64,000 nucleotides of DNA from a virus, in IMG/VR virus record IMGVR_UViG_3300025874_000005, positions 100,119 through 164,118 of that record; one strand, 5' to 3'. This document shows positions 33,990 to 53,596 of the stretch, piece by piece. Below the pieces are notes generated by a model that worked only from the letters and a program-made list of their open reading frames with translations, was not told where the DNA came from and made no database searches. How positions within the stretch are numbered: position 1 is the stretch's first letter; each line of letters starts with the position of its first letter. Both the position numbers and the translations under genes were made by a program.

Positions 33990-36900
33990 ATGGCATTAGA
34001 TAAAATAAAAAAGTCGAATAGATTACTCCAGAGTAAGAGATATACAATGGAGCAGAGTACTGATGCTCAGGAGGCATTCACAAGAACTCTCGACATTAAT
34101 GCTGGTGATGTTTATATAAGAGAAAATTTTGTTCCCTTAAATAATTTACCATATTCTGGTAGTGGACAGAACCAAGATACAATAGAATCAGGTTCAGCTT
34201 TAACAGCTGTTGATATTGTAAAGTTTCACTTCCAACATCAATTAACACCATCATCGGTTGTTAATGGTAGTAAAACAGAAGTATTTTTCTTTATATCAAA
34301 ATCAGCACATGATCCTACAATAGCTGTTACTCCTCAAATTATACAGGATGGACAACAAACAAACTTTTTATCACCAAAATATTCAGATGCTTCCTTAACA
34401 TTTAAAAATACTGAGGATAATGTACCCGCAGGAAACGGTACACCTGGATATAATGTTACTGTTAGAGTAAATGGTACTGAACAAGATTCAGCTTTTTATC
34501 AATTTGATTATAAAACAGGTGTAATACAATTCGTAGATAATTCAGTCTCACCATCAACCGGAGATACTGTCGTTTTATCAGCATACCAATATGTAGGTCC
34601 TACATTAGCAGATGGTGGTGTTGGTGGAGGTAATGCTTTTCCATTTTCAGGATCAGCACAAATAACAGGATCAGTTGGGGGTGTTCCAGGTGGATTCGCA
34701 GTAACCGGTAGTAGTACATTTGATGTAAGTGGTACCGGAGATGATTTTTCTATAATATCAGCTCCAATACAAGATAGACCTGAATTATTAACATATAACC
34801 CTTCAACAGGTCTTATAGGATATGTAAATGCAACTAGTGGTACTAGTGGATTTTCAGGTTCAAGTGGTACAGCAGGCCAATCTGGTACTTCAGGTACAAG
34901 TGGTTCATCAGGTTCAACAGGAACAAATGGTACTTCAGGAGAATCTGGTACTTCAGGAACATCAGGTGAAAGTGCTACTTCAGGTACATCAGGTACATCA
35001 GGTACTTCAGGTACATCAGGTGAAAACGGAACAAACGGTACTTCAGGTTTAAGTGCAACAAGTGGTTCTTCAGGAACAAGTGGTACTTCAGGTGAATCAG
35101 GCACAGCAGGAACAAGCGGAGAAAGTGCAACATCAGGCTCAAGTGGTACTTCAGGTACTTCAGGTGAAAGCGGCACAGTAGGTACATCAGGAGAAAGTGC
35201 AACATCAGGCTCAAGTGGTACATCAGGTACTTCAGGAGCAGATGGAACAAGAGGTACTTCAGGTTCAAGTGGTACAAGTGGTACTTCAGGTACATCAGGT
35301 ACTTCAGGAGCAGATGGGACAAGAGGTACGTCAGGAGAAAGTGCAACATCCGGCTCATCAGGTACTAGTGGTACTTCAGGTGAATCAGGCACAGCAGGAA
35401 CAAGCGGAGAAAGTGCAACATCAGGCTCAAGTGGTACTTCAGGTACTTCAGGAGCAGATGGAACACGCGGAACTTCAGGAGAAAGCGCTACTTCAGGATC
35501 AACAGGTACTTCAGGTACATCAGGTTCAAACGGAGTAGCAGGAGAAAGTGGCTTAAGTGCTACAAGTGGTACATCAGGAACCAGTGGTGCAGATGGTACA
35601 TCAGGTACTTCAGGTTTAAGTGCAACAAGTGGTTCTTCAGGAACAAGTGGTACTTCAGGAGCAGATGGAACAAGAGGTACATCAGGAGAAAGTGCAACAT
35701 CAGGCTCAAGTGGTACTTCAGGTACTTCAGGAGAATCTGGTACTGCGGGAACATCAGGTGAAAGTAGTACAAGTGGTTCTTCAGGTACTAGTGGTACCTC
35801 AGGAGCAGATGGAACATCAGGTACATCAGGTAAAAGTGCAACAAGTGGTTCTACAGGAACAAATGGAACTTCAGGTTCAAATGGTGTTGCCGGAGAAAGT
35901 GGCTTAAGTGCTACAAGTGGTACATCAGGAACCAGTGGTGCAGATGGCACCTCAGGAACTTCAGGTGTAAGTGGTACAGCAGGTTCATCAGGAACTTCAG
36001 GTACTTCAGGAGCAGATGGAACAAGAGGTACTTCAGGAGAAAGTGCAACATCCGGCTCATCAGGTACTAGTGGTACTTCAGGTGAATCAGGCACAGCAGG
36101 AACATCAGGAGAAAGTGAAACTTCAGGATCTTCAGGAACAAGCGGTACTTCAGGAGCAGATGGAACATCAGGTACATCAGGTTTAAGTGCAACAAGTGGT
36201 TCAACAGGAACAAATGGTACAAGTGGCTCAAACGGAGTAGCAGGTGAAAGTGGCTTAAGTGCAACTTCAGGTACTTCAGGAACAAGTGGAGTTGATGGTA
36301 CATCTGGAACAAACGGAAAAAGCGGAACAAGTGGTTCATCAGGAACAAGTGGTACTTCAGGAGCAGATGGAACAAACGGAACTTCAGGTTTAAGTGCAAC
36401 TTCAGGATCATCAGGTACTTCAGGTACTTCAGGTACTTCAGGAGAATCTGGTACTGCAGGAACATCAGGTGAAAGTGCTACAAGTGGTTCAGCAGGTACA
36501 TCAGGTACTTCAGGTGAAAGTGGAACAAATGGCACATCAGGAGAAAGTGCAACCTCAGGTTCAACAGGAACAAATGGTACATCAGGTTCAAATGGGGTAG
36601 CAGGAGAAAGTGGCCTAAGTGCAACTTCAGGAACCTCAGGAACTTCAGGTGTAGATGGCACCTCAGGAACTTCAGGTGTAAGTGGTACAGGAGGTTCATC
36701 AGGTACATCAGGTACTTCAGGAGCAGATGGAACAAATGGTACAAGTGGTTTAAGTTCAACTTCAGGTTCAACAGGAACAAGCGGTACTTCAGGTGAATCA
36801 GGTACTGCAGGAACATCAGGAGAAAGCGAAACTTCAGGATCTTCAGGAACAAGCGGTACCTCAGGAGCAGATGGAACATCAGGTACATCAGGTTTAAGTG

Positions 36901-39900
36901 CAACTTCAGGTTCAACAGGTACTTCAGGTACATCAGGTTCAAATGGGGTAGCAGGTGAAAGTGGCTTAAGTGCAACTTCAGGAACTTCAGGAACTTCAGG
37001 AGCAGATGGAACTTCAGGTACAAGTGGCGAAAGTGGCGAAAGTGGCTCATCAGGTACTAGTGGTACTTCAGGAGCAGATGGAACATCAGGAACAAGTGGT
37101 CTAAGTGCAACTTCAGGTTCATCAGGTACATCAGGTACTTCAGGAGCAGAGGGAACAAAAGGAACTTCAGGAAAAAGCGGAAAAAGCGGAACTAGTGGTT
37201 CAGCAGGTACTTCAGGTACTTCAGGTGAAACAGGAACAAATGGTACATCAGGTTTAAGTGCAACAAGCGGTTCAACAGGAACAAATGGTACAAGTGGCTC
37301 AAATGGAGTAGCAGGGGAAAGCGGTTTAAGCGCAACTTCAGGTACTTCAGGAACTTCAGGTGTAGATGGTACATCAGGTACAAGTGGTGTAAGCGGAACT
37401 GGAGGTTCATCAGGAACTTCAGGTACTTCAGGAGCAGATGGAACAGCAGGAACATCAGGTGAAAGTAGTACAAGTGGTTCTTCAGGTACTAGTGGTACTT
37501 CAGGTGAATCAGGTACTGCAGGAACATCAGGAGAAAGTAAAACAAGTGGTTCATCAGGTACTTCAGGTACTTCAGGTGAAACTGGAACAAATGGTACATC
37601 AGGTAAAAGTGCAACATCAGGATCAACGGGTACTAATGGTACTTCAGGTTCAAACGGAGTAGCAGGTGAAAGTGGCTTAAGTGCAACTTCAGGTACTTCA
37701 GGAACTTCAGGAGTAGATGGAACTTCAGGTACAAGTGGCATTAGTGGTACAAGTGGCTCATCAGGTACATCAGGTACATCAGGAGCAGATGGAACAAACG
37801 GAACTTCAGGTTTAAGTGCAACTTCAGGATCAGGAGGTACTTCAGGTACTTCAGGAGCAGATGGAACAAACGGAACTTCAGGAAAAAGTGCAACTTCAGG
37901 ATCATCAGGTACATCAGGTACTTCAGGTAAAACAGGAACAAACGGAACTTCAGGTAAATCAAATACTTCAGGTACATCAGGTACTTCAGGTTCCTCAGGT
38001 ACTAATGGTACAAGAGGTTTATCAGGTAAATCAAATACTTCAGGTACATCAGGTACTTCAGGTTCGACAGGTACTTCAGGTACATCAGGTGAATCAGGCA
38101 CAGCAGGAACAAGCGGAGAAAGTGCAACTTCAGGTTCGACAGGTACTTCAGGTACATCAGGTTCAAATGGAGTAGCAGGTGAAAGTGGCTTAAGTGCAAC
38201 TTCAGGAACTTCAGGAACTTCAGGTGTAGATGGCACCTCAGGAACTTCAGGTGTAAGTGCAACAAGCGGTTCATCAGGTACTTCAGGTACAAGTGGTGCT
38301 GATGGTACAGCAGGAACATCAGGTGAAAGTAATTTAAGTGGTACATCAGGTACATCTGGTACATCAGGTACATCAGGTTCAAGAGGTACTTCAGGTACTT
38401 CAGGCGAAAATGGTACATCAGGTACAAGTGGTGTAAGTGCAACAAGTGGTTCAGCAGGTACATCAGGTACTTCAGGTGAAACCGGAACAAATGGTACGTC
38501 AGGTTTAAGTGGTAAAAGTGGTACTTCAGGTTCAGCAGGTACTTCAGGTACATCAGGTAAATCAGGTAAAAACGGCACAGCAGGAACAAGTGGTAAAAGT
38601 TCAACTTCAGGATCAGCAGGTACAAATGGTACTTCAGGTAAAAATGGAACAGCAGGAACAAGTGGTAAATCAGGAACTTCAGGTTCAACAGGAACAAATG
38701 GTACATCAGGTTCAAATGGGGTAGCAGGAGAAAGTGGCCTAAGTGCAACTTCAGGAACCTCAGGAACTTCAGGTGTAGATGGTACTTCAGGTACAAGTGG
38801 TGAAAGTGGAGGAAGTGGTTCATCCGGTACTAGCGGTACTTCAGGAACAGACGGAACAAATGGAACAAAAGGTTCAAGTGGAAATAGTGCAACATCAGGT
38901 TCATCAGGTACATCAGGTACATCAGGTGAAAGTGGAACTTCAGGAACCTCAGGTTTAAGTTCAACTTCAGGAAGTTCAGGTACTTCAGGTACAAGTGGTA
39001 AATCAGGAAAAGATGGTACTGCTGGTACATCAGGTAAATCAAATACTTCAGGAAGTTCAGGTACTTCAGGTACATCAGGTACATCAGGTGAAAGTGGAAC
39101 TTCAGGAACCTCAGGTTTAAGTTCAACTTCAGGATCAAGTGGTACTTCAGGTACAAGTGGTAAAAATGGAACAGCAGGAACAAGTGGTAAATCAAATACA
39201 TCAGGAACAACAGGTACTTCAGGTACAAGTGGTTCAAACGGAGTGGCAGGAGAAAGTGGCCTAAGTGCAACTTCAGGAACCTCAGGAACTTCAGGTGTAG
39301 ATGGAACTTCAGGCACATCAGGTTTAAGTGGTACTGCAGGTTCAAGTGGTACAGCAGGTACTTCAGGTAAATCAGGAAAAGATGGCACTTCAGGTACATC
39401 AGGCAAATCAGGTACTTCAGGATCAGCAGGTACAAATGGTACTTCAGGTAAAAGTTCAACTTCAGGTACCTCAGGTTTAAGTTCAACTTCAGGAAGTTCA
39501 GGAACTTCAGGTACTTCAGGAGCAGATGGAACAGCAGGAACCTCAGGTGAAAGTAATTTAAGTGGTACATCAGGTACATCAGGTACATCAGGTACATCAG
39601 GATCAAGGGGTACTTCAGGTACTTCCGGTAAAAATGGAACAGCAGGAACCTCAGGTTTAAGTTCAACTTCAGGATCAGCAGGTACAGCAGGTACTTCCGG
39701 TAAAAGTGGAACAGCAGGTACAAGCGGTAAATCAAATACATCAGGTACATCAGGTACTTCAGGATCATCAGGTACTAATGGTACAAGAGGTTTATCAGGT
39801 CAATCAAATACCTCAGGTACATCAGGTTCTTCGGGTTCAACAGGTACAGCAGGTACTTCCGGTAAAAGTGGAGTAGCAGGTACAAGTGGTAAAAGTTCAA

Positions 39901-42900
39901 CTTCAGGAACAACAGGTACTTCGGGTACAAGTGGCTCAAACGGAGTAGCAGGTGAAAGTGGTTTAAGCGCAACTTCAGGTACTTCAGGAACGAGTGGAGT
40001 TGATGGTACATCAGGTACAAGTGGTGTAAGTGCAACAAGTGGTTCAGCAGGTACATCAGGTACTTCAGGTAAATCAGGAGCAGATGGAACAGCAGGTACT
40101 TCAGGTAAAAGTGCAACTTCAGGATCAGGAGGTACATCAGGTACAAGCGGTAAAAACGGAACAGCAGGAACCTCAGGTAAATCTAATACTTCAGGAAGTT
40201 CAGGTACAAATGGTACTTCAGGTAAAAATGGAACAGCAGGAACCTCAGGTAAATCAAATACTTCAGGAACATCAGGTACTTCGGGATCATCAGGTACTAA
40301 CGGTACAAGAGGCCTATCAGGTCAATCAAATACCTCAGGTACATCAGGTTCTTCAGGTTCAACGGGTACGGCAGGTACAAGCGGTAAATCAGGAGCAGAT
40401 GGAACAGCAGGAACTTCAGGTGTATCAAATACTTCAGGTTCTACAGGTACTTCAGGTAAGTCAGGAGCAGATGGAACCGCAGGAACCTCAGGTAAATCTA
40501 ATACTTCAGGATCAGGAGGTACTTCAGGTACTTCAGGTAAATCAGGAGCAGATGGAACAGCAGGAACTTCAGGTAAATCAAATACTTCAGGTTCTACAGG
40601 TACAAGTGGTACTTCCGGTAAAAGTGGAACAGCAGGTACAAGCGGTAAATCAAATACTTCAGGTACATCAGGTACTTCAGGATCATCAGGTACTAATGGT
40701 ACAAGAGGCCTATCAGGTCAATCAAATACCTCAGGTACATCAGGTTCTTCGGGTTCAACAGGTACAGCAGGTACAAGCGGTAAATCAGGAAAAGATGGTA
40801 CTGCGGGTACTTCAGGTGTATCAAATACTTCAGGTTCTACAGGTACTTCAGGTAAATCAGGAGCAGATGGAACAGCAGGAACATCAGGTAAAAGTTCAAC
40901 TTCAGGATCAGCAGGTACTTCAGGTAAATCAGGAGCAGATGGAACAGCAGGAACCTCAGGTAAATCAAATACATCAGGATCATCAGGTACATCAGGATCA
41001 TCAGGTATAGATGGGGGTAGTGGTGAAAGTGGCGAAAGCGCTACAAGTGGATCATCAGGTACTTCAGGTACTTCAGGTAAAAATGGTACTGCTGGAACTT
41101 CAGGTGTATCAAATACTTCAGGAAGTTCAGGTACAAATGGTACTTCAGGTAAAAATGGAACAGCAGGAACAAGTGGTAAATCAAACACTTCAGGTACATC
41201 AGGTACTTCGGGTTCCTCGGGTACTAATGGTACAAGAGGCCTATCAGGTCAATCAAATACCTCAGGTACCTCAGGTACATCAGGTTCTTCAGGTTCAACA
41301 GGTACGGCAGGTACAAGCGGTAAATCAGGAAAAGATGGAACAGCCGGAACATCAGGTAAAAGTGCAACTTCAGGATCAGGAGGTACTTCAGGTACTTCAG
41401 GTAAGTCAGGAGCAGATGGAACAGCAGGTACTTCAGGTAAAAGTGCAACTTCAGGATCAGGAGGTACATCAGGTACTTCAGGTAAAAATGGAACAGCAGG
41501 AACAAGTGGTAAATCAAACACTTCAGGAACATCCGGTACTTCAGGTTCCTCAGGTACTAACGGTACAAGAGGCCTATCAGGTCAATCAAATACCTCAGGT
41601 ACCTCAGGTACATCAGGTTCTTCAGGTTCAACGGGTACAGCAGGTACTTCAGGTAAATCAGGAGCAGATGGAACAGCAGGAACATCAGGTAAATCTAATA
41701 CTTCAGGTTCTACAGGTACTTCAGGTAAGTCAGGAGCAGATGGAACAGCAGGTACTTCAGGTGTATCAAATACTTCAGGATCAGCAGGTACTTCAGGTAA
41801 ATCAGGAGCAGATGGAACAGCAGGTACTTCAGGTGTATCAAATACTTCAGGATCAGCAGGTACTTCAGGTAAATCAGGAGCAGATGGAACAGCAGGAACC
41901 TCAGGTAAATCAAACACTTCAGGTTCTACAGGTACTTCAGGTACTTCAGGTAAATCAGGAGCAGATGGAACAGCAGGAACTTCAGGTAAATCAAATACTT
42001 CAGGTTCAACGGGTACGGCAGGTACAAGCGGTAAATCAGGAGCAGATGGAACAGCAGGAACATCAGGTAAATCTAATACTTCAGGATCAGCAGGTACTTC
42101 AGGTAAATCAGGAGCAGATGGAACAGCAGGAACCTCAGGTAAAAGTGCAACTTCAGGATCAGGAGGTACTTCAGGTACAAGCGGTAAAAACGGAACAGCA
42201 GGTACGTCAGGTACTTCAGGATCATCAGGTACAACTGGTTCAAGTGGTGTAGGTGGTGCTGGTGGTGTTTCAGGTGGATCAGGTACATCTGGTACATCAG
42301 GAAAAGATGGTACTTCAGGATCATCAGGTACATCAGGTACATCAGGTACTTCAGGTACTTCAGGTAAAAATGGTACAAGTGGTACATCAGGTATAAACGG
42401 TGCCTCAGGAGCGAGTGGAACACCTTTAGAGGTTTGGGTTGATGATAATACATCATTAGATTATGCTGCAAATATTAAGATAAATGGAGCAAATTATACA
42501 CAAGCATCACCATTTACATTAAATACAGATTTTTCATTAGGTATTACAAACCCATTCCAAATAGGTAAAAACCAACCAGACTTAACTAATACAAGTGCAA
42601 TTAATGGTACAGGATTTATTGAATATCTAATCCCAGGTGCAGATGGTTTTACTGGGGAATTTTATACTGGTGGGGGGAATGCAGGTGGAGTAACTCAATT
42701 TGAATTAGTAGCTTTAAACAGTGCTGGTAATTGGGATGAAGCAGATGCTGATTTATCATCAACAAAGAATTTATTGGGTGTTGCATATAAGGCAACCGGA
42801 GTATTGGTTGATGTTATATTAAGAGGTATGATTAAATCTAAGACTTTTAGTTTTACTGTTGGAGCACCAGTTTATGTTTCAAGAACACCTGGGGGTTTCA

Positions 42901-43013
42901 CACAATCATTAACAGGATTTGTTACTGGTGATTATGTAAGATTAGTAGGACATTCCATAGAAACTAATGTTTTATATTTCAACCCAGAACCAACATGGAT
43001 CTTAATTTCATAA
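33990..43013 (+). CDS. Giant collagen-like Gly-Thr-Ser repeat fibre
   Basis: A 3007-residue protein. Residues 1-280 form an ordered N-terminal domain (MALDKIKKSNRLLQSKRY, VVLSAYQYVGPT). Residues ~281-2809 are an almost unbroken Gly-x-y triplet array, mainly GTS with GES, GKS, GAD, GSS and GTA, without proline in the array I read. At intervals Gly is replaced in register (GES-ATS, GKS-NTS, GES-STS). The first part is Glu/Asp-rich and the later part Lys-rich. Residues ~2810-3007 form a globular C-terminal domain (LEVWVDDNTSLDYAANIKIN, GAPVYVSRTPGGFT). It should form a long trimeric triple-helix-like fibre. Three glycosyltransferase genes lie downstream. Confidence 0.85.
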   Translation: MALDKIKKSNRLLQSKRYTMEQSTDAQEAFTRTLDINAGDVYIRENFVPLNNLPYSGSGQNQDTIESGSALTAVDIVKFHFQHQLTPSSVVNGSKTEVFFFISKSAHDPTIAVTPQIIQDGQQTNFLSPKYSDASLTFKNTEDNVPAGNGTPGYNVTVRVNGTEQDSAFYQFDYKTGVIQFVDNSVSPSTGDTVVLSAYQYVGPTLADGGVGGGNAFPFSGSAQITGSVGGVPGGFAVTGSSTFDVSGTGDDFSIISAPIQDRPELLTYNPSTGLIGYVNATSGTSGFSGSSGTAGQSGTSGTSGSSGSTGTNGTSGESGTSGTSGESATSGTSGTSGTSGTSGENGTNGTSGLSATSGSSGTSGTSGESGTAGTSGESATSGSSGTSGTSGESGTVGTSGESATSGSSGTSGTSGADGTRGTSGSSGTSGTSGTSGTSGADGTRGTSGESATSGSSGTSGTSGESGTAGTSGESATSGSSGTSGTSGADGTRGTSGESATSGSTGTSGTSGSNGVAGESGLSATSGTSGTSGADGTSGTSGLSATSGSSGTSGTSGADGTRGTSGESATSGSSGTSGTSGESGTAGTSGESSTSGSSGTSGTSGADGTSGTSGKSATSGSTGTNGTSGSNGVAGESGLSATSGTSGTSGADGTSGTSGVSGTAGSSGTSGTSGADGTRGTSGESATSGSSGTSGTSGESGTAGTSGESETSGSSGTSGTSGADGTSGTSGLSATSGSTGTNGTSGSNGVAGESGLSATSGTSGTSGVDGTSGTNGKSGTSGSSGTSGTSGADGTNGTSGLSATSGSSGTSGTSGTSGESGTAGTSGESATSGSAGTSGTSGESGTNGTSGESATSGSTGTNGTSGSNGVAGESGLSATSGTSGTSGVDGTSGTSGVSGTGGSSGTSGTSGADGTNGTSGLSSTSGSTGTSGTSGESGTAGTSGESETSGSSGTSGTSGADGTSGTSGLSATSGSTGTSGTSGSNGVAGESGLSATSGTSGTSGADGTSGTSGESGESGSSGTSGTSGADGTSGTSGLSATSGSSGTSGTSGAEGTKGTSGKSGKSGTSGSAGTSGTSGETGTNGTSGLSATSGSTGTNGTSGSNGVAGESGLSATSGTSGTSGVDGTSGTSGVSGTGGSSGTSGTSGADGTAGTSGESSTSGSSGTSGTSGESGTAGTSGESKTSGSSGTSGTSGETGTNGTSGKSATSGSTGTNGTSGSNGVAGESGLSATSGTSGTSGVDGTSGTSGISGTSGSSGTSGTSGADGTNGTSGLSATSGSGGTSGTSGADGTNGTSGKSATSGSSGTSGTSGKTGTNGTSGKSNTSGTSGTSGSSGTNGTRGLSGKSNTSGTSGTSGSTGTSGTSGESGTAGTSGESATSGSTGTSGTSGSNGVAGESGLSATSGTSGTSGVDGTSGTSGVSATSGSSGTSGTSGADGTAGTSGESNLSGTSGTSGTSGTSGSRGTSGTSGENGTSGTSGVSATSGSAGTSGTSGETGTNGTSGLSGKSGTSGSAGTSGTSGKSGKNGTAGTSGKSSTSGSAGTNGTSGKNGTAGTSGKSGTSGSTGTNGTSGSNGVAGESGLSATSGTSGTSGVDGTSGTSGESGGSGSSGTSGTSGTDGTNGTKGSSGNSATSGSSGTSGTSGESGTSGTSGLSSTSGSSGTSGTSGKSGKDGTAGTSGKSNTSGSSGTSGTSGTSGESGTSGTSGLSSTSGSSGTSGTSGKNGTAGTSGKSNTSGTTGTSGTSGSNGVAGESGLSATSGTSGTSGVDGTSGTSGLSGTAGSSGTAGTSGKSGKDGTSGTSGKSGTSGSAGTNGTSGKSSTSGTSGLSSTSGSSGTSGTSGADGTAGTSGESNLSGTSGTSGTSGTSGSRGTSGTSGKNGTAGTSGLSSTSGSAGTAGTSGKSGTAGTSGKSNTSGTSGTSGSSGTNGTRGLSGQSNTSGTSGSSGSTGTAGTSGKSGVAGTSGKSSTSGTTGTSGTSGSNGVAGESGLSATSGTSGTSGVDGTSGTSGVSATSGSAGTSGTSGKSGADGTAGTSGKSATSGSGGTSGTSGKNGTAGTSGKSNTSGSSGTNGTSGKNGTAGTSGKSNTSGTSGTSGSSGTNGTRGLSGQSNTSGTSGSSGSTGTAGTSGKSGADGTAGTSGVSNTSGSTGTSGKSGADGTAGTSGKSNTSGSGGTSGTSGKSGADGTAGTSGKSNTSGSTGTSGTSGKSGTAGTSGKSNTSGTSGTSGSSGTNGTRGLSGQSNTSGTSGSSGSTGTAGTSGKSGKDGTAGTSGVSNTSGSTGTSGKSGADGTAGTSGKSSTSGSAGTSGKSGADGTAGTSGKSNTSGSSGTSGSSGIDGGSGESGESATSGSSGTSGTSGKNGTAGTSGVSNTSGSSGTNGTSGKNGTAGTSGKSNTSGTSGTSGSSGTNGTRGLSGQSNTSGTSGTSGSSGSTGTAGTSGKSGKDGTAGTSGKSATSGSGGTSGTSGKSGADGTAGTSGKSATSGSGGTSGTSGKNGTAGTSGKSNTSGTSGTSGSSGTNGTRGLSGQSNTSGTSGTSGSSGSTGTAGTSGKSGADGTAGTSGKSNTSGSTGTSGKSGADGTAGTSGVSNTSGSAGTSGKSGADGTAGTSGVSNTSGSAGTSGKSGADGTAGTSGKSNTSGSTGTSGTSGKSGADGTAGTSGKSNTSGSTGTAGTSGKSGADGTAGTSGKSNTSGSAGTSGKSGADGTAGTSGKSATSGSGGTSGTSGKNGTAGTSGTSGSSGTTGSSGVGGAGGVSGGSGTSGTSGKDGTSGSSGTSGTSGTSGTSGKNGTSGTSGINGASGASGTPLEVWVDDNTSLDYAANIKINGANYTQASPFTLNTDFSLGITNPFQIGKNQPDLTNTSAINGTGFIEYLIPGADGFTGEFYTGGGNAGGVTQFELVALNSAGNWDEADADLSSTKNLLGVAYKATGVLVDVILRGMIKSKTFSFTVGAPVYVSRTPGGFTQSLTGFVTGDYVRLVGHSIETNVLYFNPEPTWILIS
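34830..42418 (+). repeat. ~7.6 kb degenerate tandem repeat (GGT-ACT-TCA type)
   Basis: The coding triplet repeat of the giant fibre. Nine-base units such as GGTACTTCA and GGAACAAGT vary in synonymous codons. About eleven long units encode GSNGVAGESGLSATSG, and about seven in the second half encode GTRGLSG(K/Q)SNTSG. Confidence 0.9.
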
Positions 43014-43017
43014 AAAT

Positions 43018-43746
43018 ATGCCTCAAGTAAATTTAGCCCCATATACTACAAACAGCTCTAACTATGCTTTAGGTAATATTAGAAGAACGGGTGTAGGTTC
43101 CTGGACTTCTATTAGAACAGGCACACCAGTTTCAGGAAATGTGTCTCAAACAGGTAATTCTACTAAAAGTATTGGTGTTGCTTGGACTGGAGGTAGTAGA
43201 GGATCATATAGCTTATATAGAAATTATATATGGTATGATGTAACAGCCTACCAAAGCGTTTTAATAACTTCAGCAGAATTAACTTGTCCTACAACGGCAG
43301 GGGTAACTGCTTTAGCACTTCCAGTAATAGCAGTAGATAGTAGTACTGCTTTTAGTAATAATTCAAACACAACATTAAGTTTAAGTCAATTTCTTTCTAC
43401 TTCTTTTGTAGCTTATAGTAATTCTACAAATTGGGCACAAACCACAGGTTTCCAACAAATAACCCTAAATAGTTCAGCAATAGTAGCAATACAAAATGGA
43501 AATAATTTTGGAGTTGGTATTATAGACCATAATTATGATTTTCAAAATGTTCAACCCTCAGGTATTGGATTTGATGGTTTTTATTTAGGTGATATGTCAA
43601 ATGCAACACAAAGATCAAGATGGACATTAACTTTAAATTACATAGCAGGATGGTCAGCCGGAGACATGAATGGAGTGGCAAGTAGTGACATGGGGGAAGT
43701 TAATGGTGTAGCTATAGCAGACATAAGTGAAATTAATGGTATTTAA
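43018..43746 (+). CDS. Fibre-associated protein with C-terminal NGVA repeats
   Basis: A 242-residue beta-rich protein four bases after the giant-fibre stop. The body has alternating strands (SYSLYRNYIWYDVTAYQSV, SSAIVAIQNGNNFGVGII) like a jelly-roll. The last ~30 residues are short repeats: GDMNGVASSDMGEVNG and VAIADISEINGI, of the (D-x-x-x-NGV-A) type often ending phage tail or adhesin proteins. Its position suggests a tip or accessory of the collagen-like fibre. It is the last gene before the glycosyltransferase block. Confidence 0.6.
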   Translation: MPQVNLAPYTTNSSNYALGNIRRTGVGSWTSIRTGTPVSGNVSQTGNSTKSIGVAWTGGSRGSYSLYRNYIWYDVTAYQSVLITSAELTCPTTAGVTALALPVIAVDSSTAFSNNSNTTLSLSQFLSTSFVAYSNSTNWAQTTGFQQITLNSSAIVAIQNGNNFGVGIIDHNYDFQNVQPSGIGFDGFYLGDMSNATQRSRWTLTLNYIAGWSAGDMNGVASSDMGEVNGVAIADISEINGI

Positions 43747-43768
43747 CAATAGTTTGGATATGTAATTA

Positions 43769-43777
43769 ATATTTATT
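43769..43777 (+). promoter_or_regulatory. Variant ATATTTATT element
   Basis: ATATTTATTATATT, one base different from the common element, 31 bases before the glycosyltransferase ATG at 43809. Confidence 0.4.
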
Positions 43778-43808
43778 ATATTGTCAAGTAGTTTTAAAAA
43801 ATAGTTAT

Positions 43809-46520
43809 ATGAAGAAAATCTTATTTATAGCGCCTCATCTTTCAACAGGAGGACTCCCACAATATTTAACTAAAAAAATTGAACTTATTAAAGATGAGTT
43901 TGAAGTATATGTAGTAGAATGGGTAGATTGTACTGGGGGGAAATTAGTTGTAACCAAAAATAAAATATTAGAATTAGTAGATAATAATAAATTTTTTACA
44001 CTTGAAGAAGATAAAAGTGAATTATTTAATATTATAGATAGGATTACACCAGACATTATTCATTTAGAAGAAATTCCTGAGTATTTTATGGATGATGATA
44101 TAGCTCGAAAGTTATATGATGTAAATAGAAGTTATTTTTTAGTAGAAACATCACATGATTCTTCTATGGATACAGACACTAAAATATTCTCACCAGATAA
44201 GTTTATGTTTGTGTCAAACTGGCAAATAGAACAGTATAAAAACATAGATATACCTAAAATACTGGTAGAATACCCAATTGAATATATCCCCAGACCTAAT
44301 AGAGAAAATGCGTTAAAACGCTTAAATCTCGACCCATCAAAAAAACATATATTACATATAGGTTTATTTACTTCTAGAAAAAACCAAAAAGAATTTTTTG
44401 AATATGCTGAAGCATTACCTGAATATGAATTTCATAGTGTAGGAAACCAGGCAGATAATTTTAAATGGTATTGGGAACCTTTAATGGAAAATAAACCAAC
44501 TAATTTAACTTGGTGGGGTGAACGAACTGATGTAAATAATTTCTATCAATCAATGGATTTATTTTTATTTACATCTAGAGGAAGTAAAAATGATAAAGAA
44601 ACAATGCCTCTAGTAATACGTGAAGCTTTATCTTATCAAATACCACAACTATTATATAATTTAGAAGTTTATCAAAATTATTTTGAAGACTATAATACAA
44701 TTAATTATTTAGATTTTGCAGATTTTAATAAGAACGTTAAATTAATTAAAAATCAACTAAATACCCCTTCTATAATACCCCCAGATGTTGAAGAAAAAGA
44801 AGCATATGTGATTTGTACTTACCCAAATACACAAGCAGTAGTAGATACCACAATAGAATGTATTAAATCATTAAGAAAAAACAGTAATAGAAAAATAATT
44901 ATATCCGCACATTGTCCTGTTCCAAAGGAATTACAGGGTATGGTTGATTATGTTTTTTATGAAAAAAATAATTTATTAACAAAACATACATTCTACTCAG
45001 GTTATTGGATGTATCATGATCAATATGATACCCATGTAAATTTAAAAGGTGAAGATAATGATAGATATCACGGCCCAGCATGTTATACATCCTTCTATAA
45101 CCCAGCAACATTTGCTAAAGAATTAGGGATTGAAAAATTATACTATATTAACTTTGATTATATTCTTAAAGATAGTAGTTATATAGATTATATATCTAAA
45201 AAATTAAATACTCATGATACTTTCTTTGGTGAATATGAAGCACAAGAAGGTAAATGTTATTATACATATTTCTTTGCAGTCAAACCAGATGCAATTTTAA
45301 GACATTGTGATTTTATAGAAACTGAAAATCAATATAATAGTCTTATGGATAAGTATGAGGCTGAATCTAATGGTATTGAAAATTTATATTATCATATATT
45401 TAAAAATAATATAAATAACTATATTGAACCAAAAGAAAAATTTGAATCTGATGCTGAAAAGTATTTTGAATTTGAGGATTATTCAATGATTGAATATTAT
45501 ACTATACTTCCTACAGATGTAGATAATCATTTTTGTCCTTGGATAACTATTTCTAATGCTAAAGAAAGTAAGAATATCTACTATACAGTAGAAAAAAATG
45601 GTGAAGTTATCATTGATAGATTGCTAGAAGTTAGGGGAAAATTTTCATTTTGGGATTTAGTAAAATATGATTTAGATGATAACATCATAGTTACATTTGA
45701 TGTAAAAGATACTAATACTGGAGAAAGTGTAAAATATCATAAATTTAATTTAAATAAAGATTATTTTTTAAATACAATGCCTAATAATGGTATGTTTAAT
45801 TGGAAAGGAGATAGAAGTAGATACAACCCAAAAATTAAACTAATGCATTTAGTTACAGAACCAGATGTAAATGAAAAAGAAATAAGATCAGTAAAAAATA
45901 TTAAAGAATTTTGTGAATCAACAGGTATAGAATACGAACAAAGAATAAATAAAATATGGACTGACTTACCCCCAATTGATACTTGTAATAGACCTGAAGA
46001 TGTTCAAGACAAACCAGGATATTATAAACTAGCACCAGGACATTATGGGTGTTATAAAGCACACACAAATGCTATTATGTCTGAAAATAATAAAGATTAT
46101 GATTATATTTTAATCTTTGAAGGGGATGTTATTGTTGATTCCCCATTTGATGAATTAAAACAAGCTTTAAATCGTTTTAGTAATCTATCTAAATCTAATA
46201 ATCAGGACATTATAGGATTTGGCAACCCTTACCAAAATCGTAATTTAAATGGGCCTAAAATTGAAGACATATACACTAATATATCTCCATTTATACCTGC
46301 ACAATCTTATTTAATAAATAAAAATAAATTACAACTTATTCAAGATAAAATTAAAAATACAAAATGGGATGCTTTTGATATGTGGGTATGTAATGTAGCT
46401 AAATTAAAAGTAGGAACAGCAGAAAAAATTTATACTAAACATCTACCAGGATTTAGTATAATTGAGCAAGAAATAAAAACAACAGACGAAAATAGTCCTT
46501 TAATATACGCTGGAGAATGA
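43809..46520 (+). CDS. Three-module glycosyltransferase fusion
   Basis: A 903-residue protein. Residues ~1-320 are a GT-B/GT4-like module (ILFIAPHLSTGGLPQYLTKK; ILHIGLFTSRKNQKEFFEYA; FLFTSRGSKNDKETMPLVIR). Residues ~335-560 look like a second transferase-like domain (AYVICTYPNTQAVVDTTIEC; LYYINFDYILKD). Residues ~560-660 are a beta module. Residues ~670-903 resemble GT25 enzymes (DTCNRPEDV, GHYGCYKAHTNAIM, YILIFEGDVIVDSPFDEL with an acidic metal motif). It could build a short glycan alone. The stop overlaps the next start (ATGA), so it is coupled to the GT4 gene. Confidence 0.75.
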   Translation: MKKILFIAPHLSTGGLPQYLTKKIELIKDEFEVYVVEWVDCTGGKLVVTKNKILELVDNNKFFTLEEDKSELFNIIDRITPDIIHLEEIPEYFMDDDIARKLYDVNRSYFLVETSHDSSMDTDTKIFSPDKFMFVSNWQIEQYKNIDIPKILVEYPIEYIPRPNRENALKRLNLDPSKKHILHIGLFTSRKNQKEFFEYAEALPEYEFHSVGNQADNFKWYWEPLMENKPTNLTWWGERTDVNNFYQSMDLFLFTSRGSKNDKETMPLVIREALSYQIPQLLYNLEVYQNYFEDYNTINYLDFADFNKNVKLIKNQLNTPSIIPPDVEEKEAYVICTYPNTQAVVDTTIECIKSLRKNSNRKIIISAHCPVPKELQGMVDYVFYEKNNLLTKHTFYSGYWMYHDQYDTHVNLKGEDNDRYHGPACYTSFYNPATFAKELGIEKLYYINFDYILKDSSYIDYISKKLNTHDTFFGEYEAQEGKCYYTYFFAVKPDAILRHCDFIETENQYNSLMDKYEAESNGIENLYYHIFKNNINNYIEPKEKFESDAEKYFEFEDYSMIEYYTILPTDVDNHFCPWITISNAKESKNIYYTVEKNGEVIIDRLLEVRGKFSFWDLVKYDLDDNIIVTFDVKDTNTGESVKYHKFNLNKDYFLNTMPNNGMFNWKGDRSRYNPKIKLMHLVTEPDVNEKEIRSVKNIKEFCESTGIEYEQRINKIWTDLPPIDTCNRPEDVQDKPGYYKLAPGHYGCYKAHTNAIMSENNKDYDYILIFEGDVIVDSPFDELKQALNRFSNLSKSNNQDIIGFGNPYQNRNLNGPKIEDIYTNISPFIPAQSYLINKNKLQLIQDKIKNTKWDAFDMWVCNVAKLKVGTAEKIYTKHLPGFSIIEQEIKTTDENSPLIYAGE

Positions 46521-47473
46521 AAATATGCCATGTAGACCCAGCTTGTGGGTTAGATATCCCACCAAAAAATTGGGGAGCAATTGAAAAAATTATTTGGGAA
46601 TTTATAAATAATCAAAAATTACTAGGCCATGAATCTACCTACAAATTATCTTCTCATATTAATCTTGGAGAATTTGATATTGTACATTGTCATGTAGCTA
46701 ATTTAGCAATTGGTTTACAAGAAAGAAATATACCCTATATATTCCAACTTCATGACCACCATGCATTTCATTATGGTAAAGACTCACATATATTTAAAGA
46801 AAATTTAAAAGCTATAGAAGGATCACTTTTAACCTTACTACCAGGTAAATTTTTAGTTGATTATTTTAACCACCCCAAAGCACAATATTTTTCTCATGGG
46901 GTTAATGTTAATGAATTTTATCCTTCACCTAACCCAAATCCTATAAAAATAACAAACCCCAAACTGTTGATGGTTGCAGCTAATGGTTTAGCTGGTGATA
47001 AGGGTTATGATAGAAAAGGATTTAAATATGGATTAGCTTTAGCAGCAAAACATAATTTAGATATAACCATAGCAGGTCCAAACTTTAATAAAGAATTTTT
47101 TAATCAACATTTAGAAATGTTTAATTATCCAAAATTAAACTTAGTCTTTGATACACCCAACAATAAATTATTAGAATTATATCACAAACATGATATTTTT
47201 ATTCACCCTACAATGCTAGAAGCAGGCCACCCAAATTTAACTATGATTGAAGCCGCAGCTGCTGGTTTACCTATAATAGCAAATTGGGAATATGAAACAG
47301 ATTTTCATGGTGCTTGGAGATCACCACGTGATATATTTCACATGGAAGTAGGGTTAAAAGATATAATAAATAACTATGACTATTATAAAGTTAGAGCAGT
47401 AGCTACTGGAAAAGAATTAAGCTGGAAAAACAGAACAAAAGATTTATTAGAAATTTATAAAAATTTTATATAA
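46517..47473 (+). CDS. GT4-family glycosyltransferase
   Basis: A 318-residue GT-B enzyme. The N-terminal domain starts MKICHVDPACGLDIPPKNWG with the acceptor-side Gly region, has FDIVHCHVANLAIGL and YIFQLHDHHAFHYG; the C-terminal donor domain has LLMVAANGLAGDKGYDRKG, and the family signature HPTMLEAGHPNLTMIEAAAA ending in AGLPIIANWEYE (E-x7-E). It lacks membrane segments and should act in the cytoplasm on a nucleotide-sugar donor. It overlaps the upstream fusion by four bases and precedes the heptosyltransferase by one, forming a compact glycosylation operon. Confidence 0.85.
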   Translation: MKICHVDPACGLDIPPKNWGAIEKIIWEFINNQKLLGHESTYKLSSHINLGEFDIVHCHVANLAIGLQERNIPYIFQLHDHHAFHYGKDSHIFKENLKAIEGSLLTLLPGKFLVDYFNHPKAQYFSHGVNVNEFYPSPNPNPIKITNPKLLMVAANGLAGDKGYDRKGFKYGLALAAKHNLDITIAGPNFNKEFFNQHLEMFNYPKLNLVFDTPNNKLLELYHKHDIFIHPTMLEAGHPNLTMIEAAAAGLPIIANWEYETDFHGAWRSPRDIFHMEVGLKDIINNYDYYKVRAVATGKELSWKNRTKDLLEIYKNFI

Positions 47474-47474
47474 T

Positions 47475-48677
47475 ATGAAAGAAATTTTAATCCAAGAATA
47501 TAATAATTTATCTAAATTACTTATTAAACCAAAACCTCAATCTAACTTTTACCACATTAACTTTATTAATGGGGCTAAATTAGAAATTACAGGTAAAATA
47601 GATAAAAAATATAACATCCAATTTTACGACCAAAATACATTAGAATTACTTTTTGAAAGTGAAATTACAAATAATATGTGGACTAAATTTAACAAAACAT
47701 ATTATATAAATTATAATATTAAAGTAATAGATTTAGAAAATAATACAGTTGTTTTTGAACATAAATTTAATGCAAAAAACAAAAGAGTTTATATTCATTT
47801 TGCCTCAAAAGCCTTAGGGGATACTATAGCATGGTTTCCATTTGCTGAAGAGTTTAGAAAAAAGCACCAATGTGAATTAATTGTTTCTACTTTCCATAAC
47901 AGTATGTTTAAGGAAAACTATCCAAACATTAAATTTATAACTCCTGGAGAAGAACAATTTGACTTATATGCTATGTATGAAGTTGGGTGGCATTATAATG
48001 AAGATGAAAAAATAGATTATAATAAAAATATATCAGATTTTAGAAAACATGGTTTACAAAAATGTAGTGGTGAAATTTTAGGAGTTAACCAATCAGAAAT
48101 TAAACCAAAACTAACATTCAAAAATACAGGATCTACAATAGAAGGAAAATATGTCGTTATAGCACCCCATGGGTCGGCACATGCTAAGTATTGGAATTAT
48201 AAAGGAGGGTGGCAAACAATAATAGATTATTTAAATAATAAAGGTTATAAAGTAGTAATGATAACACAAGAATTATTAGGAGACAAATGGCATGATTCTA
48301 AATTAGGAGGAACTTTAACGGGGGTTATTGATAAAACTGGAGATTACCCTTTAAGTGAAAGAGCTAATGATATGTTAAATGCTAAAGCTTTTATTGGTAT
48401 TGGAAGTGGGTTAAGTTGGTTAGCTTGGGCTTTAAAAACCCCTGTAGTAATGATATCAGGATTTAGTGAAGCTTATAGTGAATTTGAAGATTGTGAAAGA
48501 ATATCATCACCTAAAAATAAATGTTCTGGATGTTTTAATAGAGTAAGATTAGATGCAGGAGATTGGGAATGGTGTCCTGATCATAAGGATACAGATAGAA
48601 TGTTTGAATGTACTAAATCAATAACACCAGATACAGTAATTGCTGCTATAAACCATCAATTAGAAAAATCTCTTTGA
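47475..48677 (+). CDS. TibC/Aah-type protein O-heptosyltransferase-like
   Basis: A 400-residue GT9-fold protein like bacterial autotransporter heptosyltransferases. It has the N-terminal beta domain (~25-105), then VYIHFASKALGDTIAWFPFA (D116, the likely catalytic base), VVIAPHGSAHAKYWNY, AFIGIGSGLSWLAWAL and TPVVMISGF. Four C-terminal cysteines, C350-x2-C353-x13-C367-x11-C379 (KCSGCFN, EWCPDH, FECTKSI), match the iron finger of that family. TibC and Aah add heptose to serines of repetitive adhesins. The natural neighbour target here is the Ser/Thr-rich 33990 fibre. Closes the glycosyltransferase operon before a late-type element. Confidence 0.82.
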   Translation: MKEILIQEYNNLSKLLIKPKPQSNFYHINFINGAKLEITGKIDKKYNIQFYDQNTLELLFESEITNNMWTKFNKTYYINYNIKVIDLENNTVVFEHKFNAKNKRVYIHFASKALGDTIAWFPFAEEFRKKHQCELIVSTFHNSMFKENYPNIKFITPGEEQFDLYAMYEVGWHYNEDEKIDYNKNISDFRKHGLQKCSGEILGVNQSEIKPKLTFKNTGSTIEGKYVVIAPHGSAHAKYWNYKGGWQTIIDYLNNKGYKVVMITQELLGDKWHDSKLGGTLTGVIDKTGDYPLSERANDMLNAKAFIGIGSGLSWLAWALKTPVVMISGFSEAYSEFEDCERISSPKNKCSGCFNRVRLDAGDWEWCPDHKDTDRMFECTKSITPDTVIAAINHQLEKSL

Positions 48678-48685
48678 TATTTATA
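48677..48685 (+). promoter_or_regulatory. ATATTTATA element (candidate late promoter)
   Basis: TGATATTTATAACAAAA overlapping the upstream stop, 13 bases before ATG 48699; almost the same string as 13614-13630. Confidence 0.55.
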
Positions 48686-48698
48686 ACAAAATTATAGA

Positions 48699-50651: not shown

Positions 50652-50703
50652 TAGTTTTTAATAATAATATAATTTTAATAACAAGTTTTAATACGTATAA
50701 AAG

Positions 50704-50949
50704 ATGACAAAATTACAAAGTGAAGAAATCAAAAAGGTTAATGATTTAAAAAATAAGTTTAATGAAACAGTACAAGCCCTAGGTAGTATTGAACTTCAAC
50801 TTTTAAACATCAATTTAAAAAAGGAACAACTTAAAATGGAAGCAGTCGAAATTCAAAAAGAAGAAATAGATTTAGCAAAAGAGTTAGAGGAAAAATATGG
50901 TAGCGGAACTATTTCTTTAGAAACTGGTGAATTTTCTCCAACTAAATAG
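50704..50949 (+). CDS. Small coiled-coil protein
   Basis: An 81-residue, Lys/Glu-rich coiled coil (NDLKNKFNETVQALGSIELQ, LKKEQLKMEAVEIQKEEIDL) with a short tail (YGSGTISLETGEFSPTK) seen in small proteins before tail genes of marine T4-like phages. It has a TACGTATAAAAG leader and stands alone ahead of the sheath gene. Function unknown; an assembly or chaperone role is possible. Confidence 0.6.
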   Translation: MTKLQSEEIKKVNDLKNKFNETVQALGSIELQLLNINLKKEQLKMEAVEIQKEEIDLAKELEEKYGSGTISLETGEFSPTK

Positions 50950-50968
50950 ACTTTTGACAGAAAACCAT

Positions 50969-50977
50969 ATATTTATT
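50969..50977 (+). promoter_or_regulatory. Variant ATATTTATT element
   Basis: ATATTTATTATCAAAATATAAC, 24 bases before the sheath ATG at 51002. Confidence 0.45.
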
Positions 50978-51001
50978 ATCAAAATATAACAATTACATAA
51001 C

Positions 51002-53596
51002 ATGGCAGAAACATTAATTTCCCCAGGAGTATTAGCAAGAGAAAACGATCAATCCCAGATTACATCTCAACCAATACAAGCCGGTGCAGCAATAATAGGA
51101 CCAACAGTAAAAGGTCAAGTAAACATTCCAAGGCTTATTACCACTTATAGTGAGTATCAAGCTAATTTTGGTACTACCTTCGAAAGTGGGTCGGCAAACC
51201 AAAAAAGTGAATATACTTTCTTAACTTCAATCTCAGCTTATAATTACTTCTCAAATGGAGGTACTTCGCTAATTGTTACTAGAGTAGCCTCAGGTTCTTT
51301 TTCACCAGCAACTTCTTCTAAGATTGCTAATGATCAAGAAACAGGACAAATTTTAGCTACAACTAATTTATTAGGATCTGCCGTAGGTGGTGGAGGTGGA
51401 GATGCTACATTCTCTGGAACACCTGCTTTTACAGGAGGAACAGGAACAGGATTAACACTTAACGCAGCAGTAACAACAAATGGGGGTGTTAAAGTAGCAG
51501 TAGATACTTTATTAGATAATTTAAATGCAGGTACAAATCCAACAGATGCAGTAGATGGATCTTACACAGTTCCATTAGTTGGAGGAACAGGAACAAATTT
51601 AACAGCTTCAATTACAGTATCAGGCCAAACAGTTACTTCTATTACAACTCCCCTAGCAACATCAGGTTCAGGTTACACAGCTTTAGATGCTTTAACTTTC
51701 CCAGCAGGTGCTTTATCAGATGGTCAGTTAAAAACAGCTCAAGATATATTATCTATATCTAATGGTGGCGCTTTAGCAATAGGAGCAGGTGGTCCAGCAA
51801 CTGGAGTAGCTATTACAACAGTTACTGGGGGTACAGTACAAACAGGAACAGGAGCAACAGTCGATATAACATCAGATGGAACAAATGTTTCAGTACTAAC
51901 AGTAAATGCATTAGGAACAGGATATGTTACAGGTAATGTATTAACAATTACACAAGCAGATTTAGTTACAGCTGGATTCGCAACTGCAGCAGCAGATTTA
52001 ACAATTACATTAACCCCTGCAAATGTTGAATTATCAACAGCAGGAGCCTTAACATTACAAGCTGCAGATTTATTTTACTCACTAACAACTTTAAATGCTG
52101 CTACAGAAGGTACAGGATATGAAGTTAATGATCAATTAACAATTGTAGCAGGTGCTATGGGTGCAAATTCATCAGAATGTATAATTACATTAGTAGATGC
52201 TGATATAGTAGATGGAAATGCATTTATATTAGAATCAATTGGTCAAGGCCAAATCATGAATAGTACAGGAGCTGAAAATTCTCAAGGTGCTTTAACAAAT
52301 GGATCATCAAATAATTTAAGATGGGAAATTACATCACCAAATACCTCTTCAGGTACGTTTAGTGTAGTAATTAGACAAGGTAATGATAATACAAGAGCTA
52401 AATCAGTACTTGAAAGCTTTACTAATGTATCATTAGACCCAAAATCATCAAATTATATTTCAAGAGTAATTGGTGATCAAACACAAACAGTAAAAGGAGT
52501 TGGAACAACAGATGTTTACCTACAAACAACTGGATCTTATGCCAATGCTTCAAGATACGTAAGAGTAAAAGAAGTTAATTTCAAAACACCAGATTATTTA
52601 GATAATAGTGGACAAGCAAAACCAGAATATACAGCTTCTATACCAGTACAAGCTTCAGGAACATTTGGAGATGCAGTAGGTAGTATTTTAACCGGAACTG
52701 GAAAATATTATGATAAAATTACAGCAGATGATACTCAAGGATTAGTTGGAGATAATTATACAACTGCAATTAATTTATTAGCAAATAAAGATGATTACAA
52801 ATACAACATTATCTCAACACCAGGTTTAACTCAAGCAGATTATACATCAACAACCAATAAATTAATTTCTAACACAGAAAATAGAGGAGATAATATTGTA
52901 ATATTAGATCTTGAACTATATGCTAAGTCTATTACAAATGTTACTACAACGGCAGCAAGTAAAGACTCATCATATGCAGCTTCATATTGGCCTTGGTGTA
53001 TGGTAACAGATCCAGATTCAGGACAAAGAGTTTGGGTACCAGCAGGAACATTAATTCCAGGAGTTTATGCTAATAATGATAGAACAGCAGAAGCATGGTT
53101 TGCCCCAGCAGGTATTAATAGAGGTGGATTAGGTCAAGTAATTCAAGCTGAAAGAAAATTAACTCAAGCTAATAGAGATGAATTATATATTAATAAAGTA
53201 AATCCTATTGCAACCTTCCCAGGAAGAGGAGTAGTAGTATTTGGTCAGAAAACACTACAAAATCAAGCATCAGCTTTAGATAGAGTAAATGTTAGAAGAT
53301 TGTTAATTGCACTTAAAAATTATATTTCTCAATTATCTGATAATTTAGTATTTGAACAAAATACAGCGGCTACAAGAAATACATTCTTAAGCCAAGTTAA
53401 TCCATATTTAGAGTCAGTACAGCAAAGACAGGGTTTATACGCGTTTAAAGTTGTTATGAATGATTCAAATAATGGACCCGATGTAATTGATAGAAACGAA
53501 TTAAGAGGTGCTATATACATACAACCTACTAAAACGGCTGAATTCATTTACTTAGATTTCAACATTTTACCAACTGGAGCAGAATTTCCAGCATAA
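51002..53596 (+). CDS. gp18: Tail sheath protein (gp18) with a large repeat insertion
   Basis: An 864-residue contractile sheath. N-terminal (LISPGVLARENDQSQITSQP, AGAAIIGPTVKGQVNIPRLI) and C-terminal (WVPAGTLIPGVYANNDRTAE, FAPAGINRGGLGQVI, VNPIATFPGRGVVVFGQKTL, VRRLLIALKNYI) regions are typical. The T4 gp18 core is interrupted at ~120-415 by beta-rich modules with G(T/S)GYxxxDxLT repeats (SGSGYTALDALTF, LGTGYVTGNVLTI, EGTGYEVNDQLTI), like those of the 27360 protein. The insertion probably decorates the tail surface. It is followed by the tube gene as in T4. Confidence 0.93.
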   Translation: MAETLISPGVLARENDQSQITSQPIQAGAAIIGPTVKGQVNIPRLITTYSEYQANFGTTFESGSANQKSEYTFLTSISAYNYFSNGGTSLIVTRVASGSFSPATSSKIANDQETGQILATTNLLGSAVGGGGGDATFSGTPAFTGGTGTGLTLNAAVTTNGGVKVAVDTLLDNLNAGTNPTDAVDGSYTVPLVGGTGTNLTASITVSGQTVTSITTPLATSGSGYTALDALTFPAGALSDGQLKTAQDILSISNGGALAIGAGGPATGVAITTVTGGTVQTGTGATVDITSDGTNVSVLTVNALGTGYVTGNVLTITQADLVTAGFATAAADLTITLTPANVELSTAGALTLQAADLFYSLTTLNAATEGTGYEVNDQLTIVAGAMGANSSECIITLVDADIVDGNAFILESIGQGQIMNSTGAENSQGALTNGSSNNLRWEITSPNTSSGTFSVVIRQGNDNTRAKSVLESFTNVSLDPKSSNYISRVIGDQTQTVKGVGTTDVYLQTTGSYANASRYVRVKEVNFKTPDYLDNSGQAKPEYTASIPVQASGTFGDAVGSILTGTGKYYDKITADDTQGLVGDNYTTAINLLANKDDYKYNIISTPGLTQADYTSTTNKLISNTENRGDNIVILDLELYAKSITNVTTTAASKDSSYAASYWPWCMVTDPDSGQRVWVPAGTLIPGVYANNDRTAEAWFAPAGINRGGLGQVIQAERKLTQANRDELYINKVNPIATFPGRGVVVFGQKTLQNQASALDRVNVRRLLIALKNYISQLSDNLVFEQNTAATRNTFLSQVNPYLESVQQRQGLYAFKVVMNDSNNGPDVIDRNELRGAIYIQPTKTAEFIYLDFNILPTGAEFPA

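Follow-up and report, generated by a model that had tools for sequence, protein, structure and literature searches.

A probable fused three-domain glycosyltransferase of a T4-like marine virus, encoded beside a TibC-family homologue and a giant collagen-like fibre gene

Why does a marine phage encode a 903-aa protein that reads like three glycosyltransferases in one chain, and what would such a protein modify? The gene lies in the window analysed here, a stretch of 64,000 nucleotides that corresponds to positions 100119-164118 of a 164,118-base phage record (IMGVR_UViG_3300025874_000005). The protein is most likely a glycosyltransferase with three fused domains, encoded by a T4-like virus close to the Flavobacterium phages. 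Since its gene lies beside those for a relative of the TibC-type adhesin glycosyltransferases and for a giant collagen-like fibre, the phage may decorate its own fibre with sugars. We lean, with some reserve, towards the reading that the fusion, the GT4 gene at 46517 and the TibC-family gene at 47475 form a glycosylation cassette for this fibre. The features discussed are collected in Table 1.

Table 1. Features of the fusion gene and its surroundings (window positions unless a locus is named)
Feature	Position	Strand	Basis
Collagen-like Gly-X-Y fibre-type protein, 3007 aa (GTS repeats), proposed substrate	33990..43013	+	repeat composition
Fusion protein, 903 aa, GT-B / GT-A-like (MID) / beta / GT25	43809..46520	+	ORF, Pfam, AF2 models, relatives
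GT-B domain, GT4-like, residues 1-322	43809..44774	+	PF00534; VIA Z 17.9 to 4xsu_B
E-x7-E motif, E264...E272, GT-B domain	44598..44624	+	both Glu invariant 35/35
MID, GT-A-fold domain, residues about 331-556	44799..45476	+	AF2 model, VIA fold matches
N448-F-D450-Y451, at DxD-type motif position in MID	45150..45161	+	N, D, Y invariant 35/35 and 48/48
Beta module, residues 562-664	45492..45800	+	DSSP of models
GT25 domain, residues 672-903	45822..46517	+	PF01755 26.7 bits, cut-off 24, domain alone
E771-G-D773, acidic ExD motif of GT25	46119..46127	+	E, D invariant 24/24, incl. 735-kb phage copy
Separate GT4-type glycosyltransferase, 318 aa	46517..47473	+	PF00534 33.1 bits, cut-off 26.4
TibC/BAHT-family (GT9) protein O-glycosyltransferase homologue, 400 aa	47475..48677	+	TIGR04414, PDB 4rap
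D116, aligned to the TibC position mutated to Ala in 4rb4 (D110A)	47820..47822	+	invariant 27/27
Iron-finger-type C350, C353, C367, C379	48522..48611	+	invariant 27/27 relatives
Tail sheath protein, marks virion structural region	51002..53596	+	phrog_23, E 3.5e-64
2OG-Fe(II) oxygenase	L015:8735-9328, L059:9401-9994, L133:4696-5289		PF13640, E 2.7e-14 in L015

The fusion gene is one intact, ATG-initiated reading frame. Five other IMG/VR contigs carry an identical 903-aa ORF, so the fusion is no assembly artefact. A scan of viral contigs for the protein gave 112 candidate stretches, all of which encode relatives, and the best 80 of the 112 were retained. The fused state is kept in relatives down to about 54% identity; split ORFs at the locus (2 of 155 loci, L139 and L140) count against our main explanation. 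Eight relatives compared with the window gave dN/dS values of 0.036-0.358 across all four modules, and every domain of the fusion is under purifying selection. PHROGs holds no family for the protein. A PDB sequence search with the whole fusion returned chance-looking matches only (HemD, a nucleoprotein), and searches with the GT25 alignment and with the alignment of MID and the beta module gave nothing credible.

An AlphaFold model of the 903 residues from 35 sequences reached a pLDDT of 81 and a pTM of 0.51, with a weak stretch at residues 115-154 in the GT-B part. The domain limits (Table 1) lie within a few residues of the blocks 1-320, 335-560, 560-660 and 670-903 proposed in the first-pass annotation. 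In the GT-B part, Glycos_transf_1 (PF00534) scored 40.6 bits over residues 165-297, against a cut-off of 26.4, and the model aligned with the GT4 enzyme 4xsu_B over 279 residues at an rmsd of 4.3. SdgB, TarM and WaaG were also among the fold matches listed. Together with E264 and E272, which form the E-x7-E motif, the family score and the predicted GT-B fold point to a GT4-type domain. Phage glycosyltransferases can act on DNA, and the T4 alpha-glucosyltransferase 1y8z is found among the fold matches of this part (Z 15.9). However, it is one among many GT-B folds matched, the gene has a TibC-family neighbour and lies in the structural region, and no DNA-base-modifying enzyme was seen within the cassette. 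We therefore regard it as highly improbable that the fusion domains modify phage DNA.

The second domain, MID, was modelled alone with the beta module at a pLDDT of 95.0 and a pTM of 0.90. Its predicted GT-A fold resembles glycogenin (1ll2; VIA Z 14.1, rmsd 6.0, 201 residues aligned), 6eqj (Z 14.0, rmsd 3.7, 184 aligned) and the N-domain of COLGALT1 (9evk; Z 13.3, rmsd 3.3, 185 aligned), and many GT-A enzymes match at Z 12.7-14. No credible Pfam family was found for it in a scan of 48 members. The motif YINFDYI, to which the first-pass annotation had drawn attention, is real, as N448, D450 and Y451 are invariant. It reads N-x-D instead of the usual D-x-D, the first Asp being absent; this counts against our main explanation and makes the activity of MID the least certain of the domains. 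An origin of MID and the GT25 domain by duplication was rejected, with no profile match between the two (probability 0.7%).

For the last domain, Glyco_transf_25 scored 21.6 bits at 738-850 in the whole-protein scan, below the cut-off of 24, and passed it when the domain was scanned alone. The GT25 domains of relatives match this family at E 0.01 in 18 of 24 cases. The suspected acidic motif FEGDVIVD is likewise genuine and holds the invariant ExD pair; with the score of the isolated domain, it argues for membership in GT25. The beta module had been thought to resemble the N-terminus of the 47475 protein. This idea found no support at the level of sequence: hhalign gave probabilities of 5.3% (small alignments) and 2.1% (89 TibC clusters) for a match with the TibC N-terminal barrel, and TibC_1st is missing from the Pfam families listed across the 48 fusion members.

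A single polypeptide with three glycosyltransferase-type domains is thus confirmed, with conserved motifs, dN/dS of 0.04-0.36 and no domain visibly decayed. Its interpretation as three enzymes is partly supported: each domain may be active, and the three may act in sequence. The whole model has COLGALT1 (9evj) as its top Foldseek PDB match, but this is a fold-level hint only, because the 660 columns align at an rmsd of 22 and GT-A folds match in general. Viral GT25 models and multi-glycosyltransferase viral proteins are among its BFVD matches.

Function is indicated more clearly by the TibC homologue and the collagen-like fibre gene next door than by the fusion. The start of the GT4 gene at 46517 overlaps the stop of the fusion gene, and it is followed by the 47475 gene. 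The product of the latter scores 336 bits with the equivalog model TIGR04414 (cut-off 200), compared with only 40.7 bits for RfaQ, and matches the TibC crystal chain 4rap at E 2.3e-63 with its residues 21-396 aligned. By these scores it belongs to the TibC/BAHT family and is a homologue of protein O-heptosyltransferases. According to PMC4358343, iron is bound in TibC by Cys-339/342/358/370, the D110A mutant is inactive and the adhesin TibA is an acceptor, for example at Ser-176; invariant residues of the 47475 protein correspond to the iron-finger cysteines and the catalytic Asp (Table 1). Four other loci (L102:5181-6884, L110, L111 and L140) encode TibC homologues with about 170-178 additional N-terminal residues, which in L102 are weakly methyltransferase-like.

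These neighbours bear on the main rival explanation, in which the cassette remodels LPS/O-antigen polysaccharide on the surface of the infected host, superinfection exclusion being one possible purpose, and the fibre merely shares a variable host-recognition region. The same reading was published for glycosyltransferase-rich pelagimyophage regions (PMC7029224), LPS enzymes occur in the GT25 and GT9 families according to Pfam names, and a second sugar island of the phage encodes glycosyltransferases, epimerases and a nucleotide-sugar dehydrogenase. However, the TibC subfamily scores best, not the LPS heptosyltransferases, and the known acceptor of TibC is a protein (PMC4358343).

The Gly-X-Y repeats of the fibre protein extend over 2535 residues, Ser and Thr make up 49%, and its gene is the sole Gly-X-Y ORF of the 164-kb record (the window and six stretches spanning the rest). 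We grouped TibC homologues from 268 loci into 89 clusters at 90% identity. A Gly-X-Y ORF lies in the locus in 60 of the 89 and is lacking in 2; the 27 others, with flanks too short to judge, were excluded from the following count. Of the 46 clusters whose upstream flank reaches 7.5 kb or more, 44 show a collagen-like ORF, usually Ser/Thr-rich, at the locus. The fibre is upstream on the same strand in 30 of 31 loci with at least 6 kb upstream, and on the other strand in L083.

Within one lineage, this linkage is partly inherited synteny. It exceeds one inherited gene order, since it recurs in several settings. In L314-L324 the same cassette follows different upstream genes, and the Gly-X-Y gene is downstream on the opposite strand (the contigs L315 and L323 stop before it). 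In the 735-kb phage LR756501 the fibre is upstream of the cassette on the other strand. Microcystis phage Mel-JY01, whose deposited record names the host, also has it upstream, on the strand of the cassette. In the Mel-JY01 entry (L295:2-3052, PP395634.1), the collagen-like ORF is overlain by 'hypothetical proteins' annotated on the minus strand, and coding-strand annotation covers only its end. That the linkage survives relocation and strand change in L314-L324 also argues against the remodelling of host polysaccharide, which we consider rather unlikely.

The genes upstream of the cassette in L314-L324 are, by our reading, putative T4-like portal and capsid genes. This placement, and that of the window's cassette among structural genes, would suit enzymes whose target is not the repeats but a different protein of the virion (capsid, tube, or one of the 242-aa and 650-aa neighbours), much as glycans are found on capsid and tail tube of Mycobacterium phages (cited in PMC12619734). 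The neighbour common across settings, in 44 of the 46 clusters, is the Gly-X-Y gene, however, and modification of a different virion protein appears distinctly improbable.

Several loci count against the proposed cassette for the fibre. L299 has the cassette with no Gly-X-Y gene in the ~78 kb read of its contig. In L296 (LR756504, a phage record of 636 kb), the TibC homologue stands alone, and the 25 kb that were read contain no collagen-like gene. Conversely, L198, L220 and L225 carry a Gly-X-Y fibre without the cassette, and TibC was missing from all three records searched (L198, L225 and L224, fragments of 34-46 kb). Two strict versions of the linkage are thereby ruled out: a Ser/Thr-rich fibre does not need the cassette, as L198 shows, and TibC is not always near Gly-X-Y, given the 2 of 46 clusters without it. 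Judged by the tail sheath (53%), the closest relative with a name is Flavobacterium phage immuto, which has no annotated glycosyltransferase within 20 kb upstream of its sheath.

The modules of the fusion are shuffled among phages: GT25 is absent or swapped, methyltransferases are added, the order is altered and MID is fused to a TibC homologue. We counted architectures over 155 loci, a redundant set picked in part by a GT25 scan. GTB+MID+BETA+GT25 accounts for 115 ORFs, 25 ORFs are without GT25, and other partial architectures are mostly ORFs cut off where the contig stops. The modules are not equally similar to the window, as fits module exchange: identity for GTB, MID, BETA and GT25 is 82, 88, 89 and 40% in L017 and 73, 45, 44 and 82% in L022. 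The fusions of L014, L015 and L058 have an extra N-terminal extension, an FkbM methyltransferase in L015. In LR756501 a 1140-aa fusion reads GTB-GT25, a stretch that we read as beta-rich, then MID-BETA, and the next gene joins GT4 and TibC homologues in one 738-aa protein. L299 encodes GTB-FkbM-GT25 in one protein and GT2-GT4-TibC in the next. A 1227-aa protein of Mel-JY01 unites GT4, MID (57.9 bits at 427-614), a stretch that we read as methyltransferase-like, and TibC. The first-pass annotation had imagined the fusion as an assembly line that adds two or three sugars in turn; these shuffled fusions and the adjacent GT4 and TibC-family genes strengthen this idea of enzymes that would act one after another.

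The intact fusion, the TibC-family score, the fusion links in Mel-JY01 and LR756501, the 44/46 linkage and the sole Gly-X-Y ORF all support the reading of a fibre-directed cassette. In such a scheme, the TibC homologue would prime Ser/Thr residues within the Gly-X-Y repeats of the 3007-aa fibre by attaching heptose, or a sugar related to it, taken from an ADP donor. Joined in one chain, the GT-B, GT-A and GT25 domains would then extend the glycan sugar by sugar, with the beta module spacing or docking the tethered domains. The activity of each domain, the order of the steps, the identity of the sugars and the fibre's role as acceptor are all putative. The supply of heptose counts against this scheme, as gmhA has no match in the record and the RfaE-domain-I-like (TIGR02198-like) kinase of the second sugar island scores well below its cut-off. 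That island (record positions 36101-51265, outside the window) also encodes an FkbM methyltransferase, GT4, GT2, epimerases and a dehydrogenase; the NDP-sugar dehydrogenase is above its cut-off and the epimerases are below theirs.

A 2OG-Fe(II) oxygenase is present in the island of all three clusters with Pro-rich repeats, as against 0 of 57 other TibC clusters. This restriction suggests that the enzymes of an island suit the fibre they accompany. Only these loci carry, in the interval from the fibre gene to the fusion gene, the oxygenase together with one DUF6445 and one GT2-methyltransferase protein. The oxygenase-bearing clusters may be one clade. The Pro-rich repeats contain about 10-19% Ser/Thr and TibC is nevertheless retained, which counts against our main explanation. 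In L069, a fourth cluster with the oxygenase, the fibre is outside the view. A broader proposal, which we put forward as tentative, is a self-contained, modular collagen-maturation line: fused glycosyltransferases and a TibC-type initiator, with a prolyl-hydroxylase-like enzyme for Pro-rich repeats, would build a glycosylated fibre thousands of residues long, and the shuffled modules would diversify its glycan as phage coat or adhesin.

How does this compare with known systems? The 47475 protein shares with TibC/BAHT (TIGR04414; 4rap) the family score, the iron-finger Cys, the catalytic Asp and a Ser/Thr-rich repeat protein encoded alongside. It differs in being phage-encoded, in its linkage or fusion to GT4, GT-A, GT25 and methyltransferase modules, and in having no known autotransporter partner. 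COLGALT1 and the GT25 collagen galactosyltransferases are alike in the top Foldseek match, in the similarity of MID to the N-domain and in a collagen-type acceptor, which in the phage is a proposed one. The target of COLGALT1 is hydroxylysine. However, the seven Y residues most frequent in the window's repeats do not include Lys, and a PF13640 hydroxylase is absent from the record (PF13640 was the model searched), so the sequence does not suggest a collagen hydroxylysine galactosyltransferase. SdgB (7vfl; Z 15.6), a Ser-Asp repeat glycosyltransferase, also has a GT-B fold and modifies a Ser-containing repeat peptide, but the match is at fold level only and many unrelated GT4 enzymes score equally.

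Several glycosyltransferase domains per polypeptide are already known from viral proteins in BFVD: a 985-aa protein of Virus NIOZ-UU157 (Foldseek E 7.5e-28), the 924-aa 'Aah/TibC' protein A0A6J5SVC1 of an uncultured Caudovirales (E 8.9e-18), which shows that a phage protein has been so labelled, and a multiple glycosyltransferase protein of CeV-01B (E 6.6e-11). Glycans on virion proteins are likewise known from mycobacteriophages (Freeman et al. 2023, cited in PMC12619734), where capsid and tail tube, not a collagen-like fibre, are glycosylated; the available parts of PMC12619734 mention no TibC homologue. Among the matches listed from the open-licence PMC literature, we recognised no paper on phage TibC or on a glycosylated phage collagen-like fibre, and Mel-JY01 had no match there.

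If the proposed role of the cassette is true, it would define a phage branch of TibC-type protein O-glycosylation with a concrete substrate, the collagen-like GTS repeats. The shuffled fusions would be naturally tethered multi-step glycan enzymes. It would also offer a testable answer to the question why aquatic phages hold glycosyltransferase clusters beside their tail genes, clusters that have so far been interpreted as modifiers of the host O-antigen.
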